From an uncultured Eubacteriales bacterium (GTDB taxonomy: Bacteria > Bacillota > Clostridia > Oscillospirales > Acutalibacteraceae), in assembly GCA_900315605.1 (NCBI GenBank), contig OMZU01000011.1, positions 1 through 48,657 of the forward strand: DNA of 48,657 bases, in the 5' to 3' direction. This document shows, one piece after another, positions 2,331-48,657 of the stretch. The position numbers and the translations under genes are program-made. The notes beneath the pieces are model-generated. The model made no database searches, was not told the origin of the DNA, and was given only the letters and a program-made list of their open reading frames with translations. Each line of letters starts with the position of its first letter. Position 1 is the first letter of the stretch.

Positions 2331-3476
2331 TCAATACTCTCTCTTTTTTCTTGAAAGGAATAAAGCTCCTGCTGCTGCGACCATCATGCCGCCTAAAACA
2401 AAGAGAACTGTTGTCTCCGGACCTGTTGTAACTGACCTTGCTCCGCCGGTCGTGGTTGAGCTGCCTGTGGAGCTGCCTGAGCTTACTGTTCGGGTTCCGC
2501 CTGTTCCGGTGTTGTTCGCTGCCGGAGTGCCGTTTCCGCCGCTGCCGGAGGAAGAATTGCTGCTTGAGCCGGGATCTGAGCTTGAGCCGCCGTCGCTGCT
2601 GCCGTCGCCGCTGCTTGTGCTGCCGCCGGGCAAGCTTGACTTATCTTCGCTCCAATCAACGCTGACGCCGGTCTCCTTGATAGCCTTTGTAACATCATCC
2701 TTGCCGAGTCCGAGAGCGGCTGCTGAGTCGTCAACCAAGCTTTGGTCGTCTTTTCCTGAATATTCTCTTGCATTGCTGAGCATATTAGTCAGGAACTGTA
2801 CGAGCAGCTCATATTTGGATCCTACCGCAACTTTGCCGACAATATTACCGATAGAAGTGACTTGAAGGCGCGGACCGTATTTATCTTGGTCAACTCCGTT
2901 ATCCCAAACCACTTCGTGGGCTTTTTTGTTTGAATCCTGAGGATTTTCTACCATATTGCCTGTCCAGCTTGCTGTGTGTCCAAGGCATGATTCGCCGAGC
3001 AAAAGGTCATAGGTTTGCAGCGACCAAGTCGATCCTGCCGCAAAGATAACGAAATAGTTATGATCCGAAGCAAGCTCGAAGCCCTTTTCTACAAGATCAA
3101 AGGAATACTTTCCGTCGCTTTCCTTTTTCATTTTACCTTTTTTAGCTCCCCAAGTTATCATTGCACCGTCCTTGAGGTCGTACAGATAAGTGAAAACGCC
3201 TTGATCGACAATATTTTGAGACCAATCGGACGGGACCTCAAAATAAATCGCGTTATTTGAGCCTGTTGATTCGCTGTCTGCTTCCGCGCCGACATTTGAA
3301 TCGGCTTCTTCCGCACCCACGTTTGAATCGGTTTCTTCCGCACCCACGGGTTCTGCCTCTGTTGCTGCAACCGCTTCTCCCTCTGCCTCAGCCGCAGAAA
3401 CGGAGAGCGGCAGAGCCGATAACAGCAGGGTTGCCGATATCAAAAATGCGATCGTTTTTTTCAGTGATTTCTTCAT
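2331..3476 (-). CDS. Secreted CBM26-like surface protein with C-terminal anchor
   Basis: A 381-residue exported protein. The start is the ATG at 3476, which has GGAGG 8 bases upstream; an in-frame GTG further out lies inside that site. Residues 1-28 are a signal peptide ending in SVSA. A short acidic repeat (GAEE-DSNV) follows. The next ~100 residues have the layout of a CBM26-type starch-binding module: an opening IYFEVPSDW, aromatic strands, and a late 'FVIFAAG...QTYDL' segment. A Ser/Gly/Asp-rich linker of about 90 residues leads to VTTG, a hydrophobic span and a KKREY tail, resembling a degenerate sorting signal. The wall protein at 44274-45602 shares the x-F-x-x-PSDW opening. Carbohydrate binding is inferred from pattern, not shown. 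Confidence 0.75.
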   Translation of the reverse strand: MKKSLKKTIAFLISATLLLSALPLSVSAAEAEGEAVAATEAEPVGAEETDSNVGAEEADSNVGAEADSESTGSNNAIYFEVPSDWSQNIVDQGVFTYLYDLKDGAMITWGAKKGKMKKESDGKYSFDLVEKGFELASDHNYFVIFAAGSTWSLQTYDLLLGESCLGHTASWTGNMVENPQDSNKKAHEVVWDNGVDQDKYGPRLQVTSIGNIVGKVAVGSKYELLVQFLTNMLSNAREYSGKDDQSLVDDSAAALGLGKDDVTKAIKETGVSVDWSEDKSSLPGGSTSSGDGSSDGGSSSDPGSSSNSSSGSGGNGTPAANNTGTGGTRTVSSGSSTGSSTTTGGARSVTTGPETTVLFVLGGMMVAAAGALFLSRKKREY

Positions 3477-3583
3477 AGTTTTTACCTCCACTTTTTTGTT
3501 TATCTCGCCGTTTGTAAAGCTTTACCGAAAAAGATACCTGTGGCGAGGATTTTTTGCAGCTTAATGCTGCTCTTCTGATTTTT

Positions 3584-3589
3584 ATTATA
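3584..3589 (-). promoter_or_regulatory. Candidate extended -10 promoter for the CBM26-like gene
   Basis: On the minus strand TATAAT is preceded by TG one base upstream (extended -10), with no good -35. A small palindrome, CTTCA-N3-TGAAG at 3593-3605, lies just upstream. The leader to the start codon is about 100 bases and includes the perfect palindrome GTAAAGCTTTAC near 3516-3527. Confidence 0.45.
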
Positions 3590-3650
3590 TCACTTCAATC
3601 TGAAGTTTATCTAAAGATTTTACAATTTTTATACTATTTTTCCATAATAA

Positions 3651-3792
3651 ATGAAAAATTTCGGTCGGACAAAAGCCTTTGATATAAAAAATACGTTTAT
3701 TCCCAAAGGTGATTTTAATGGACGATTTTGGTCGGGAAGAAAACATTTTTGCCTACGAAAACGTTTATCCCCGACCGATATTATTCATTTTT
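3651..3792. repeat. Imperfect inverted repeat with internal direct repeats
   Basis: The outer arms (3651-3668 and 3771-3792) both carry TCGGTCGG next to an AT-rich ATGAA-type stretch and pair imperfectly. Inside, two degenerate direct copies share GGTCGG followed about 40 bases later by ACGTTTAT-CCC. No reading frame or promoter stands out. It may be an old, decayed repeat element that served as a landing zone for the miniature element next to it. Confidence 0.4.
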
Positions 3793-3801
3793 CAGTCTTA
3801 A

Positions 3802-3962
3802 GGGCACCTCTAAAAATTCACTGTTGTTCAAAGGTGCGGATATTTTATAGTAGATTTTTGTCAAAACGGCGATGTCATACTGACGTATAACGAGGCGTTT
3901 TGGCAGAAATATGCTGTGAAAGATTTGTGACTATGGGCAGCTATGAATTTTTAGAGGTGCCC
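3802..3962 (+). mobile_element. MITE-like element, copy 1, flanked by TTAA
   Basis: A 161-base non-coding element with perfect 19-base terminal inverted repeats beginning GGGCACCTCTAAAAATTCA and a TTAA on each side (3798-3801 and 3963-3966). A second copy in opposite orientation at 41300-41443 is nearly identical, apart from a 17-base internal segment present only here and a few substitutions. The flanks outside TTAA repeat a 13-base motif, TTTTCAGTCTTAA, suggesting insertion into one unit of a short tandem repeat. It encodes no transposase, so it would have to be moved by an enzyme encoded elsewhere. Confidence 0.85.
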
Positions 3963-40090: not shown

Positions 40091-40567
40091 TTATAACAGC
40101 ATTTCCATTCCGATTTTTTGCGGCTTCAAGCCCATTGCTTCATAGAATTTAATCGCAGAGGGGTTGCAGGTCCAAACGTTCAGAGTGACGTTATAAAAGC
40201 CGTTTTCTTTGGCGTAGGCTATAACATGCTCGCACAGTGCCTTGCCGACGTGCTGTCCCCTTGCGTTTTCATCAACGCAAATATCGTCGATATACAGGGT
40301 CTTTATGTCCGTCATCACCGAATCATCCGCGAATTGCTTGTGAACGCAAAAGGCGTGACCGAGCGGAACGTCGTTCTCGTCAACGCAGACAAACACAGGC
40401 GCAGCCTCATCCCTCAAAAGCTCCCTCAGCTCGCCTTCGCTGTATTTTGTGGCGGGTCCCTTAAAAATATCGGGTCTGCCGTTGTGGTGTACCATATCGA
40501 CCTGAACAAGCAGCTCAAGTATTTTCGGGATATCCTTTTCAGTTGCTCTTCTTATTGCCAAGTTCAT
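40091..40567 (-). CDS. GNAT-family N-acetyltransferase
   Basis: A 158-residue enzyme of the GCN5-related acetyltransferase fold. It opens with LAIRRATEKDIPKILELL, typical of the family. It carries the acetyl-CoA binding loop DENARGQHVGKALCEHVI and ends with NVWTCNPSAIKFYEAMGLKPQ, the common C-terminal motif. The substrate is unknown. The ATG lies 29 bases inside the 3' end of the transporter gene with AAGGAAG as its ribosome site, so it was translationally linked to that gene before the latter was broken. Confidence 0.92.
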   Translation of the reverse strand: MNLAIRRATEKDIPKILELLVQVDMVHHNGRPDIFKGPATKYSEGELRELLRDEAAPVFVCVDENDVPLGHAFCVHKQFADDSVMTDIKTLYIDDICVDENARGQHVGKALCEHVIAYAKENGFYNVTLNVWTCNPSAIKFYEAMGLKPQKIGMEMLL

Positions 40568-41592
40568 TGTTTTTGCTTCCTTTATAATTTATACTTTGCA
40601 GCAAAATTCCGCCCACAATAAGAATCAGGGCAAGAACCGCGCTGACTGTGATCTGCTCCTTCAAAACGATCGCCGACAAAATGATCGAAAGAAACGGCAC
40701 AAGATATGCCAGATTTGCGATTTTGGCAGAATCCTCGGAGTTTTTCAGGGCGATTGCCCACAGCAGATAGGCGACCGCGTTTACAACAACGCCGAGCCAC
40801 GCAAGACCTGTCCACGCCCAGCCCGAAATGGGCTGTGGGCTTTCAAAAATCAGGCTTGCGGCAAACGAACAAACCGCCGTTGTGAGCCAAAACCACATCA
40901 TTGCCACGCCTTGGCTCAGGCTGTGTTTTTTGTTGAGCACCGAGAACAAGCCGTAGCAAACCGCAGCCGCAACACAAGCGGCTATTCCCAAAAGCCTGTT
41001 GCCCGACGCGCCCTCGCCCTGTCCCAGAGTGAGCACGACTATTCCGGCAAAGGACATTATCATTGCAGCCACCTTGCGCACAGTCAGCCTTTCTTTTAGG
41101 ATAATGCACGCAAAAATGACTATCATCATCGGCCACAGATAGTTGAGGATACAAGCCTCCTGTGAGCCCAGCTCGTCGATACCAAAGTAATACAAAGCCG
41201 AATACATGAACAGCCCCCAAAAGCCCAGCCCCGTTATCATCAGGTGATCCTTTGGTCGGTACGCCTTCATTTCTTTTATCGAGCCGTTTATTATATTAAG
41301 GGCACCTCTAAAAATTCATAGCTGCCCATAGTCACAAATCTTTCACAGCATATTTCTGCCAAAACTCCTCGTTATACGTCAGTATGACTTCGTACTATAA
41401 AATATCCGCACCTCTGAACAACAGTGAATTTTTAGAGGTGCCCTTAAGGATCAGCAAAAACACAAACGCGAACGCGCTGCTCACCGCGAGTGCCTCAAAG
41501 CTTGGGATATCCTTTAGAACAAGCTTGACCGCCGTTGCCAAGGTTGCCCAAAGCACGACCGTGATCGCAGCGTAAAGATAATTTTTTTGCAT
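40539..41592 (-). pseudogene. EamA/DMT-family transporter interrupted by a MITE
   Basis: The first 49 codons run from the ATG at 41592 (AAGGAG 8 bases upstream) through two hydrophobic helices to FVFLLIL. The frame then enters the element at 41443 and stops inside it (41395). The rest resumes beyond 41296 and includes a 243-codon frame from MKAYRPKDHL at 41270 to 40539, covering about eight membrane spans of the drug/metabolite transporter superfamily. Deleting the 144-base element and one TTAA joins FLLIL to NIINGSIKE and MKAYRP in one frame of about 301 codons, the usual EamA length. A shortened product from the ATG at 41270 is possible but would lack the first two helices. Confidence 0.9.
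41300..41443 (-). mobile_element. MITE-like element, copy 2, inserted in the EamA gene
   Basis: A 144-base element with the same perfect 19-base terminal inverted repeats as copy 1 and TTAA on both sides (41296-41299 and 41444-41447). It is in the opposite orientation to copy 1 and lacks a 17-base internal segment. The element plus one TTAA is 148 bases, not a multiple of three, so it shifts the frame and also brings stop codons. Confidence 0.93.
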
Positions 41593-41733
41593 TTTCCATG
41601 CTCCTTGTTTCTTTTGCAGTAGAAGTCCACTTAAATAATACCAAAAAATCGCGCTGTTGTCCATACGCAAAACGCGGTTTTGGGGCGCAAAGCAGGTTGT
41701 AGGGTCAAAAATTGCGAAAAATGTAAAATCATA
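41593..41733. other. Divergent spacer, minus-strand gene side
   Basis: Between the broken transporter and the DHHW-like gene promoter. I see no clear minus-strand promoter or operator. Confidence 0.35.
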
Positions 41734-41762
41734 TTGTTTTTGGATCGATTATGTAGTATAAT
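41734..41762 (+). promoter_or_regulatory. Promoter of the DHHW-like gene
   Basis: TTGTTT (41734-41739), a 17-base spacer and TATAAT (41757-41762). The start codon is about 85 bases further on. Confidence 0.65.
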
Positions 41763-41848
41763 ATAAAATGCAGATTAATGTATTCGTATGCAAACGCTGA
41801 CAGTTCTTTTGGGAATTGGAGTTAAAATTGCTGGAAAGGAGAATGATT

Positions 41849-43243
41849 ATGATCCGCTTTGACGGTGACGATTATTTTGACCTTGACAATTTTGACGATA
41901 GTATTCAACGCCCTGCGCCGAGACAACGCTCGCGCAGGAGCAATAAGCAGCGTTCGGGTTCGGCAAAAAAGCGTTCTTCAAGCACCGCCGCACAAAGGCG
42001 TTCGCAGGCTCCGCGCAGCCGACAGACCTCGCGCCCCTTGAACACACGCAGCAGCCTCGGCGCACAAAGAAGCCGTTCGGCATACAACGCGCGCAGAAGA
42101 AAGGCTATCAAGCAAAGACGGACGCGCAACCGCGTGCTGATAATTGCCGCAGCACTGCTTATCTTCGCTGTTTTGGTGACGCTGATAAGCTTTATGTTCA
42201 AGGGCTGCGGTTCGGAAAAAGACGACATACCCAAAAACGTGTCCACCGAGATCAAGCAAAAGCAGGAATCGGCTTCTCAGGCAGAACAAGAGCCCGAGGA
42301 AGAATCGGCGCAGACCGCGTTTAAGGAGCCCGAAATTCAGGACGACAACACCGACGGAGAGCTTTTGGACAGGATATATGTTTGGCACAACGCCGGCTAT
42401 CCGATATATGATCCGTCAGAGGGTGCAGCCGAAGGCTACGCTCAGGCGGTAAATTCACTTGCCGACAAGCTGGAAGCGAAAAAAATTTATTCTATCGTTA
42501 TCCCAAACCGCACAGAAATGGGACTTCCAAAGCGCATCAAAGAAAGCGCGGAGATTTCGGCTTCTCAGGCTGAGGTGATTTCCGCGGTAAACGAAAAGCT
42601 CAGCGACAAGCTGACCCCGGTCAACGTTTATAACAGCCTTGCAGAGCACAACAGCGAGTATATATATCTTAACACCGAGGAATATTGGACATCCCTCGGC
42701 GCATACTACGGCTATTCCGCCTTTGCCGAGCAAGCAAAGCTCAAGGCTTTGTCGCTTGACGAATGCAGCGAAACTAAGCTTGAGGGCTACACCGGCTCCT
42801 ACACGCTGATTTCCGGCGACCTTACGCCCGACTCACTCAGCATCTACAGCATGCCCCACAGCGTTACAATGGATATAACCCGTTCCGACGGAACACAAGA
42901 GAGCTTTGACTCTCCGTATGACACCAACGCTCAGCCGGGCTCCAACGCCTTTGCCGCCTACCTTATGGGCGACAATCCGCTAAGCGTGCTCAGATCCGAA
43001 GCGGAAAACGCAAGTGGCAAGGTCTTGGTGGTCAAGGACAGCGGCGGAAACAGCTTTGTTCCGTTTTTGACCGCCGATTACTCCGAGGTTCACGCCGTTG
43101 ACTTGTATTCCTTTGCACAGCAAATGGGAAGTCTGGCTGATTATTGCAGCCAAAACAGCATTGACGACGTTATTATCCTCAGTGAAATGACCGACGTCGG
43201 CTCAGACAGGATCGCAGGTCTTTTGAGCGGACTTTGCCCGTGA
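41849..43243 (+). CDS. Membrane-anchored DHHW-like (SGNH/AlgX-type) protein
   Basis: A 464-residue protein. The start is the ATG at 41849 with AAGGAG 7 bases upstream; two earlier in-frame ATGs are badly spaced. Residues 1-20 are acidic, 21-94 are extremely rich in Arg, Ser and Gln, and 95-117 form one membrane span, so the basic part is cytoplasmic. After a Glu/Gln linker the outer ~290 residues resemble the DHHW family: SIVIPNRTEM, YLNTEEYWTSLGAYYGYSAF, and GKVLVVKDSGGNSFVPFL. The motif that names the family is EEYW here, with the metal/catalytic-type Asp-His-His lost, so activity on wall polymers is doubtful. Related AlgX/DltD-like proteins act in acetylation of surface polysaccharides. 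The basic tail could bind nucleic acid or lipid; this is speculation. Confidence 0.7.
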   Translation: MIRFDGDDYFDLDNFDDSIQRPAPRQRSRRSNKQRSGSAKKRSSSTAAQRRSQAPRSRQTSRPLNTRSSLGAQRSRSAYNARRRKAIKQRRTRNRVLIIAAALLIFAVLVTLISFMFKGCGSEKDDIPKNVSTEIKQKQESASQAEQEPEEESAQTAFKEPEIQDDNTDGELLDRIYVWHNAGYPIYDPSEGAAEGYAQAVNSLADKLEAKKIYSIVIPNRTEMGLPKRIKESAEISASQAEVISAVNEKLSDKLTPVNVYNSLAEHNSEYIYLNTEEYWTSLGAYYGYSAFAEQAKLKALSLDECSETKLEGYTGSYTLISGDLTPDSLSIYSMPHSVTMDITRSDGTQESFDSPYDTNAQPGSNAFAAYLMGDNPLSVLRSEAENASGKVLVVKDSGGNSFVPFLTADYSEVHAVDLYSFAQQMGSLADYCSQNSIDDVIILSEMTDVGSDRIAGLLSGLCP

Positions 43244-46859: not shown

Positions 46860-48657
46860 TTACTTTCTCTCTCTTTTGCGTGCGAAATAGATTGCAGCAG
46901 TTGCAGAAATCAGAACTAAGAGGATAATTACAGCCATAGAAGCATTACCTGTCTGAACTGCATTGCTTGAAGTTGTTGATGTTCCGCCCTTGTTGATCTG
47001 GTCGCTCGAAGCCTGATCTGCAGTAGACTTGCCGTCAACCGAAATAGTTGTAGGAACTGGTTCGATCTTGGAGCCTGCGTCAGTTGTAGGTTCTACAGAA
47101 GCCGGTGTTGTTGTTTCATCAGATGATGGAGCTGATGTAGGCTCAACAGGAGCTGTTGTTTCTTCTGCAACAGGTGCTGTTGTGTCTTCTGCAACAGGAG
47201 CTGTTGTCTCTTCCGCAACAGGTGCTGTTGTTTCTTCTGCAACAGGTGCTGTTGTCTCTTCTGCAACAGGTGCTGTTGTCTCTTCTGCAACAGGTGCTGT
47301 TGTTTCTTCTGCAACAGGTGCTGTTGTTTCTTCTGCAACAGGTGCTGTTGTCTCTTCTGCAACAGGAGCTGTTGTCTCTTCTGCAACAGGTGCTGTTGTT
47401 TCTTCTGCAACAGGTGCTGTTGTTTCTTCTGCAACAGGTGCTGTTGTTTCTTCTGCAACAGGTGCTGTTGTCTCTTCTGCAACAGGTGCTGTTGTTTCTT
47501 CAACTACAGGAGCTGTTGTTGTTTCCTCAGCTACAGGTGCTGTTGTTTCCTCAGCTACAGGTGCTGTTGGTTCATCAGAAGGAACGCCCTTGATGATCTC
47601 AGACTCATTGTCTGTGATATCGTCGAGAGTCTGAACTACGCCGTCTCTGATAACTGTTGTATCAACAGGCTCGCCGTCTCCGTTGAACTCAACAAGTGTG
47701 AGATCTTCTACAAAGAGGTCTACGTCTGCTACGCCTGCGCCTGTTGCGGAGAATGTAGCCTGAACGAATACGCCCTTAGTTGTGAAGTCATACGGATTTG
47801 TGATGCTTGCTGCCCAGCCGATTGCAGGATTCTTGCCGGAGTTGATTACAGCGTCAGAAACCTTTGGCATTGTGAGGCTCTGGAGTGTAAGGTGCTCAGC
47901 GTCATAGTTGAGCTTCCAAGCAGTGTTGCTGATCTTCTTGTCAGCAGCAAGATAGTAAAGAACTGTGATTGTCTGCGGATCAGCCTCGTCGAGATTTACG
48001 ATGTACTGGCTTGATGAGCAGAGGTTAGAAGTTGCGTTTACTGTGAGAGTGTTAGAAACTACAGGAATTGTTGTTTCCTCAGCTACAGGTGCTGTTGTTG
48101 TCTCTTCAACTACAGGTGCTGTTGTTGTCTCTTCAACTACAGGAGCTGTTGTTGTTTCTTCAACTACAGGAGCTGTTGTTGTTTCTTCAACTACAGGTGC
48201 TGTTGTTGTTTCTTCAACTACAGGTGCTGTTGTTGTTTCCTCAGCTACAGGAGCTGTTGTTGTTTCTTCAACTACAGGAGCTGTTGTTGTTTCTTCAACT
48301 ACAGGTGCTGTTGTTGTCTCTTCAACTACAGGTGCTGTTGTTGTTTCCTCAACTACAGGAGCTGTTGTTGTTTCTTCAACTACAGGTGCTGTTGTTGTCT
48401 CTTCAACAGGCTCTGTTGTTGTTTCCACTACAGGAACAGTTGTTTCTTCTGCTACTGTTGTAGGTTCATCAGAAGGAACATAGTCAGGATCGTAAGGACC
48501 TGCGTATACATAAGTATTGTTTGTTACAGCAGTCTCGATATCCTGTGGCTGGTTGCGAGTTACAACTCTTTCGCTGGTTGTTGGGTCAGCCTTGCCCTTG
48601 ATTCTTTCTACGATCGTGAGTTCCTTAACGTTGAGGTCAACTGTTGTGTCGCCCTCG
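46860..48657 (-). CDS. Scaffoldin-like surface protein with cohesin-like modules and repeat linkers (partial)
   Basis: The C-terminal 598 residues of a gene that runs off the window; the in-frame GTG at 48428 is internal and not the start. The order is: the end of one cohesin-like module (TVDLNVKELTIVERIKGK, ending near VPSDEP), a linker of about 13 copies of the 9-residue unit APVVEETTT, and a complete cohesin-like module (about 150 residues) with LTVNATSNL, NTAWKLNYDAEHLTLQ and ADVDLFVEDLTLVEF. A second linker of about 18 copies of the 8-residue unit APVAEETT follows, then a Ser/Thr-rich piece, NAVQTG, a hydrophobic span and ARKRERK. The two module ends align with each other. Such layouts occur in Ruminococcus scaffoldins, which hold dockerin-bearing enzymes at the cell surface. 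Whether these modules bind dockerins is unproven. Confidence 0.8.
   Translation of the reverse strand, partial: EGDTTVDLNVKELTIVERIKGKADPTTSERVVTRNQPQDIETAVTNNTYVYAGPYDPDYVPSDEPTTVAEETTVPVVETTTEPVEETTTAPVVEETTTAPVVEETTTAPVVEETTTAPVVEETTTAPVVEETTTAPVAEETTTAPVVEETTTAPVVEETTTAPVVEETTTAPVVEETTTAPVVEETTTAPVAEETTIPVVSNTLTVNATSNLCSSSQYIVNLDEADPQTITVLYYLAADKKISNTAWKLNYDAEHLTLQSLTMPKVSDAVINSGKNPAIGWAASITNPYDFTTKGVFVQATFSATGAGVADVDLFVEDLTLVEFNGDGEPVDTTVIRDGVVQTLDDITDNESEIIKGVPSDEPTAPVAEETTAPVAEETTTAPVVEETTAPVAEETTAPVAEETTAPVAEETTAPVAEETTAPVAEETTAPVAEETTAPVAEETTAPVAEETTAPVAEETTAPVAEETTAPVAEETTAPVAEETTAPVAEDTTAPVAEETTAPVEPTSAPSSDETTTPASVEPTTDAGSKIEPVPTTISVDGKSTADQASSDQINKGGTSTTSSNAVQTGNASMAVIILLVLISATAAIYFARKRERK
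47130..47575 (-). repeat. Tandem 24-base coding repeat
   Basis: About 16 nearly identical 24-base units encode APVAEETT, followed toward 47575 by a few mixed 24/27-base units. Silent T/C and T/A changes separate some units. The copy number is likely to vary by slippage or recombination, in steps that keep the frame. Confidence 0.9.
48070..48425 (-). repeat. Tandem 27-base coding repeat
   Basis: About 13 units of 27 bases encode APVVEETTT, with one APVAEETTT-type unit. They form the linker between two cohesin-like modules. The unit length differs from the 24-base array in the same gene by one threonine codon. Confidence 0.9.

Follow-up and report, generated by a model that had tools for sequence, protein, structure and literature searches.

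A probable IS5-type MITE within an EamA/YddG-like transporter gene of an uncultured Ruminococcus relative

A 144-bp MITE at positions 41300..41443 of the window (the whole 48,657-nucleotide stretch of DNA analysed here, which is contig C43 of a 2.42 Mb draft genome in 93 contigs) interrupts an EamA/YddG-like transporter gene on the minus strand, whose start codon lies at 41592 and whose stop lies at 40539. It is very probable (about 0.9) that a non-autonomous MITE of the IS5 type hit a TTAA in this gene, probably moved in trans by an IS5-family transposase, and that the gene was inactivated by the event. The insertion of a MITE in a transporter gene is a well-known kind of event; the present case is of value because the insertion is natural and clean, its empty site has been identified and a driving IS can plausibly be named, and because it corrects a tempting inference, in that the TTAA flanks of one element do not make it piggyBac-like.

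The interrupted gene and its intact relatives

The first-pass annotation of this DNA had described a 144-base MITE splitting a transporter gene, and this description is confirmed. Both ends of the element read GGGCACCTCTAAAAATTCA over 19 bp, the terminal inverted repeat at 41300..41318 (plus strand) being the reverse of that at 41425..41443 (minus strand) with 0 mismatches, and a TTAA target-site duplication flanks the element on either side (41296..41299 and 41444..41447) within the split EamA frame. The element starts with GGG, has terminal inverted repeats, no transposase gene and no internal frame of 100 aa or longer, and is shorter by 17 internal bases than the 161-bp form described below. 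It is placed on the minus strand because that strand has the strong RNA fold; this is also the transporter sense strand. An Rfam search of positions 40500-42000 gave no match up to an E value of 1.

The 5' part of the gene (41444..41592, minus strand) retains 49 codons, while the 3' part (40539..41299, minus strand) holds a 243-codon open frame from an ATG at 41270. Reading from the start at 41592, 49 codons lead to FLLIL and are followed by 16 further codons and then by a stop within the element. The Pfam EamA model matches the larger half at 5e-28 and the 49-residue half at 5e-6 (27.4 bits, below the 28.2-bit cut-off). The best NCBIfam match of the larger half is the aromatic amino-acid exporter YddG with 111 of 300 bits, and, because this score is well under the cut-off of the YddG model, 'YddG-like' denotes a resemblance and not an assignment. 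A search of the same genome with the larger half at E 0.001 reported no second match, and a PADLOC run with the transporter half returned none. The insertion would inactivate the gene in that translation from the true start would stop 16 codons beyond the junction, and the larger half would be a membrane protein deprived of its first 58 residues; the split gene thus probably yields no working protein.

Most of the relatives nearest to the transporter are MAGs of uncultured Ruminococcus, and Sheep_1_mag_57 is the best of them. A set of 23 homologues was assembled from 21 loci obtained by scanning named genomes with the larger half and from two more. The frame is open across the insertion site in all 23, and the residues at the site are L-N-I-x-N-G-S-like in most of them, three Selenomonas loci and locus L134 being more divergent. 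A TTAA stands exactly at the insertion point in two of the 23, loci L114 and L121. Locus L114 is the closest relative found, with 85% identity in protein and 84% in DNA of the larger half. The two halves in the window, when aligned separately to it, cover 2827-2975 (89.9% identity) and 2972-3727 (83.8%), and the 4-base overlap consists of the TTAA target bases, which are present once, as expected of an empty site. The alignments to locus L136 (genome G072) are identical, and it was counted as the same allele. Neither of the two observations that, according to the first-pass annotation, would refute it was made: a relative with an intact allele and a single TTAA exists (L114), and the likeness to EamA proteins extends across the junction. 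That a MITE entered with a 4-bp TTAA duplication and without further lesions is likewise supported, and the gene is colinear with its intact relatives.

A DNA search of 161 genomes of the genus found matches in 37, many of them through the element alone. Besides the genome studied here, 16 have a listed match to the larger half that is long, and none of these 16 matches continues into the element; in G145 it ends short of the insertion site. Both halves are listed in nine genomes (G072, G148, G165, G067, G099, G048, G110, G144 and G007), where the two pieces overlap by 5-6 bases or sit 3-4 bases apart and the element is absent. This count and that of the 23 homologues are not independent because some of the genomes are probably identical.

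Neither half of the split gene carries a second lesion. The dN/dS values relative to L114 are 0.089 for the small half (48 codons) and 0.095 for the large one (230 codons), which, being taken across the whole divergence, are a weak clock for a recent loss of function. Amino-acid changes are not in excess on the lineage of the window (1 vs 1 in the small half, 6 vs 13 in the large one) when counted against an outgroup majority of 12 rows, at least two of which are probably out of register; the rows of L118 and L126 were kept in this majority, but their dN near 0.8 in the larger half, probably a product of the gap-less comparison of rows, was not used as an estimate. Decay of the split gene was considered and rejected on the low dN/dS and the lack of an excess of changes. 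The low dN/dS and the absence of a second lesion would fit a recent insertion and give no date for it.

Inactivation by MITEs is reviewed in PMC10969869 for mcy of Anabaena, hns of Acinetobacter and pyrE of S. solfataricus. As in those reported cases, a MITE has here entered a coding sequence with intact counterparts elsewhere; they differ in that the present target is an EamA/YddG-like transporter of a gut Ruminococcus relative, and in that its inactivation is predicted.

The element family, its targets and a candidate transposase

A second copy, of 161 bp and with a TTAA duplication, is found in the window at 3802..3962 (plus strand) between two long frames. When the 18-base end pattern was sought in the 2.4-Mb genome with at most 3 mismatches, 79 matches were obtained vs 3 for the reversed control; with these counts, and with 43 end pairs found, the pattern is not due to chance. 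The stretches fetched from this genome contain 14 end pairs, 13 with an exact 4-bp duplication, all made of A and T only (TTAA 6, TAAA 2, TATA 2, TTTA 1, TTAT 1 and AATA 1), so that 7 of the 13 are other than TTAA. In the first sample, which covers this and related genomes, 28 of the 43 end pairs have an exact 4-bp duplication, with TTAA in 11 of the 28. The 15 pairs devoid of one (1 of 14 in the genome under study) are explained by age or false pairing. A looser set of 77 pairs, which admits up to 5 end mismatches and with them some false pairs, and which overlaps the first 43, gives 44 exact duplications with TTAA in 12. As TTAA accounts for 2.6% of the 4-mers made of A and T only within the window, it is preferred, yet not required.

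The commonest length, 161 bp, is presumably the full one. Other copies in the same genome are internally shortened to 148, 138, 128, 127 and 127 bp; loci L039, L044, L047, L049 and L051, as well as the window copy at 41300-41443, have different internal deletions with both ends intact. At locus L046 (G000:C81:10280-10605) one MITE, of 161 bp, has entered a second one and is flanked by a TATA duplication of its own. Once the insert is removed, the outer element measures 161 bp and is 98% identical to the window copy at 3802-3962; this interrupted element counts among the 13 copies with an exact duplication. A literature search for MITEs of this bacterial group and for this element found no description.

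The first-pass annotation had also suggested a search of the genome for a transposase gene with matching ends. Such a search does lead to an IS5-family transposase, the ends being nearly, not exactly, alike. The IS in question, of which one complete copy is present (G000:C73:22476-23706, 1231 bp, ATAA on both sides), encodes a 341-aa transposase that belongs to the IS5 family (NF033581, 282 bits with a cut-off of 140; Pfam DDE_Tnp_1 and DUF772), and its ends show 1 and 3 mismatches of 18 relative to the MITE-type end GGGCACCTCTAAAAATTC. The sequence common to MITE and IS is confined to the ends. By eye the likeness is limited to the ends, so the idea that the MITE arose from this IS by simple internal deletion was rejected, and a transposase other than that of this IS could move it.

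IS ends are also found at 17 contig edges, GGTCACCTCTAAAAATTC at 8 and GGTAACCTCTAAAAATTG at 9, and the 8 edges of the former kind are followed by what appears by eye to be the start of the transposase; at all 17, the assembly appears to have been broken by an IS of this kind. The 4-mers outside these edges, each visible from one side and hence not as a duplication, are TTAA in 6 of 17 cases and A/T-only in 15 of 17. The target spectrum of the IS is much like that of the MITE, namely A/T-rich and 4 bp. In G124 the IS lacks an exact duplication.

Among 14 MITE-bearing genomes, the IS5_4 transposase scores above the cut-off in 3, the present one included, with four matches, of which two are in this genome (C73 and, on C1, a decayed copy) and one each in G092 and G124. 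The ends beside these transposases are GGTCACC, GGTAACC, GGCAACC, GGTTACC or GGGAACC, and in G138 a GGGAATC end adjoins a transposase fragment below the cut-off. An autonomous element with GGGCACC ends was sought near the transposase matches of the 14 genomes and none was found; draft assemblies are prone to losing IS. The GGGCACC and GGACACC ends near those transposases are MITE ends by sequence, one of them directly beside the G092 fragment. At locus L149, the start of contig G092:C6, a MITE end adjoins an IS5 transposase fragment as if the MITE had inserted in an IS. Locus L091 (G000:C1, 3785 bp) contains a MITE and a decayed IS5-type copy with GGGAACC/GGTTACC ends; a 418-aa frame on the opposite strand weakly matches the IS5 transposase model used above.

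Because ends and targets are alike, an IS5-type transposase is the probable mover of the MITE: the enzyme of the IS with near-matching ends would act on it in trans, and its insertion into a TTAA within the transporter gene would have duplicated the 4-bp target. A comparable element is MITEPsy1, which PMC3189936 lists as an 'IS5?' MITE and which is similarly short and transposase-less, with terminal inverted repeats like those of IS5-type IS. The present element differs in host and sequence; its body folds on one strand as an RNA hairpin of almost full length, which may be a further difference.

The RNA hairpin of the element

The whole element, as RNA, folds into one hairpin on one strand. 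For the 161-bp window copy the two strands give −90.0 and −55.3 kcal/mol (z −13.9 vs −9.4), and for the transporter copy the sense strand gives −66.8 vs −47.1 for the other. One strand is the stronger in each of 42 paired copies, by a small margin in one doubtful pairing. The strong strands of these copies contain 452 G-U pairs vs 75 in-register A:C mismatches, a contrast inflated by the choice of the strand on its energy and by the bias of folding towards G-U. There are about 11 G-U pairs per copy (window 41300-41443 and 3802-3962; copies in L039-L113 and L158-L177).

An alignment of 36 of the 42 copies (four short ones from the same genome, the doubtful pair and L171 were omitted) has 96% of its cells paired. 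Changes on both sides occur in 20 of 47 pairs, a number reached by none of 500 shuffles and to be compared with 6 to 9 in slid versions, over which the structure is favoured, having been derived from the same alignment. Further pair types stand out less (55 counted vs 50.3, with 18 of 500 shuffles reaching 55). As covariation was counted with no tree of the copies, these are not counts of independent events, and relatedness of the copies together with correction of the palindrome in DNA could yield part of the signal. Such correction would not be expected to give conserved G-U pairs.

Placement with respect to neighbouring genes was read from loci L178-L217 and L248-L287. The 32 paired copies in a first set of 40 fetched loci have the strong strand antisense to both neighbours in 16 cases and sense to both in 4, of which the transporter copy is one; the remaining 12 have divergent, convergent or single neighbours, as called from greedy ORFs. 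Among the 77 pairs of the looser set, which overlaps this one, the figures are 34 antisense vs 16 sense (two-sided P 0.015). A covariance model matched 80 of the 161 genomes of the genus at E 0.001, and in a sample of the order 22 of 147 genomes, with the present one among them and the others weaker (best 5e-17).

Because of the conserved G-U pairs, the compensatory changes and the mostly antisense placement among co-directional neighbours, it may be asked whether selection for an RNA hairpin on one particular strand maintains the family, the transporter copy then breaking the gene and marking its mRNA for processing until it is lost at the TTAA. We regard this as unlikely. If true, it would make the family an RNA-bearing mobile element, beyond a DNA parasite, and the wide distribution of the family in the genus provides material for testing RNA selection on bacterial MITE hairpins. 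For other bacterial MITEs, PMC10969869 reports stable stem-loop transcripts as well as cleavage by RNase III, and, unless RNA selection is demonstrated, the hairpin described here is a variation on a known theme.

Fate of the interrupted gene

As DNA, the element ends and the TTAA can form a 23-pair terminal hairpin (z −7.0). For the IS5-type MITE proposed here, precise loss from the transporter gene could take place, by analogy with known elements. One likeliest route of any excision would be slippage between the TTAA copies across the terminal hairpin, plausible because the hairpin includes the TTAA, and the other a rare precise excision linked to the transposase; either would give occasional reversion, not a regulated switch.

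A reversible on/off switch, with precise exit frequent enough to maintain mixed populations in which the transporter is restored, had been considered conceivable in the first-pass annotation, and appears to us quite improbable. The single TTAA at the same place in a relative shows the uninterrupted frame to be the natural one, neither half has acquired a second lesion, and the terminal hairpin could favour slippage. However, a clean site in another species looks the same if it was never hit, the empty sites were all seen in other species, with one assembly representing this one, and the target is not restricted to TTAA. Furthermore, the transposase is not of a type for which traceless exit is known to be the rule. 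PMC5493358 describes phase variation caused by IS492 and IS1301 and, citing Zhang et al. 2010, the precise loss of IS5 from fuc in E. coli under selection. The fuc case resembles the present one in that the element is of the IS5 family and its precise loss restores the site, but it concerns an autonomous IS and a laboratory-selected excision, whereas here a non-autonomous MITE is known from one assembly.

It is similarly doubtful, to much the same degree, that the split gene is partly functional, the insertion being tolerated or even useful as a result of translation from the ATG at 41270 or of an element hairpin that tunes expression. The 243-codon half is intact with a low dN/dS, it might be translated, and the strong RNA hairpin does lie in the transporter sense strand. 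Against this, a start at 41270 would cost the 58 N-terminal residues, by eye no convincing ribosome-binding site precedes it, and the frame extends upstream of the site by some 40 residues or more in 22 of the 23 homologues, the lone exception being L124, where it opens about 17 residues ahead.

Finally, a piggyBac/IS1380-like TTAA element with seamless excision, the analogy drawn in the first-pass annotation, is hardly credible: the 4-bp TTAA duplication at the transporter site, TTAA flanks of five other exact copies in the same genome and the GGG start, as in some piggyBac ends (CCC/GGG, PMC10140906), speak for it, but the family is not TTAA-specific (6 of 13 duplications in this genome, with 17 of 28 in the first sample other than TTAA), the IS with near-matching ends is of the IS5 family, and the single IS1380 model used, NF033539, has no match in this draft genome. 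This identity was rejected on target spectrum and transposase family. With an IS5-type MITE, and not a piggyBac/IS1380 element, enzyme-coded traceless excision is therefore not implied.

Elsewhere in the window, at 46860-48428 (minus strand), a long frame with near-identical TTTAPVVEE/TTAPVAEE repeats probably encodes, as judged by eye, a surface or scaffold-like protein.
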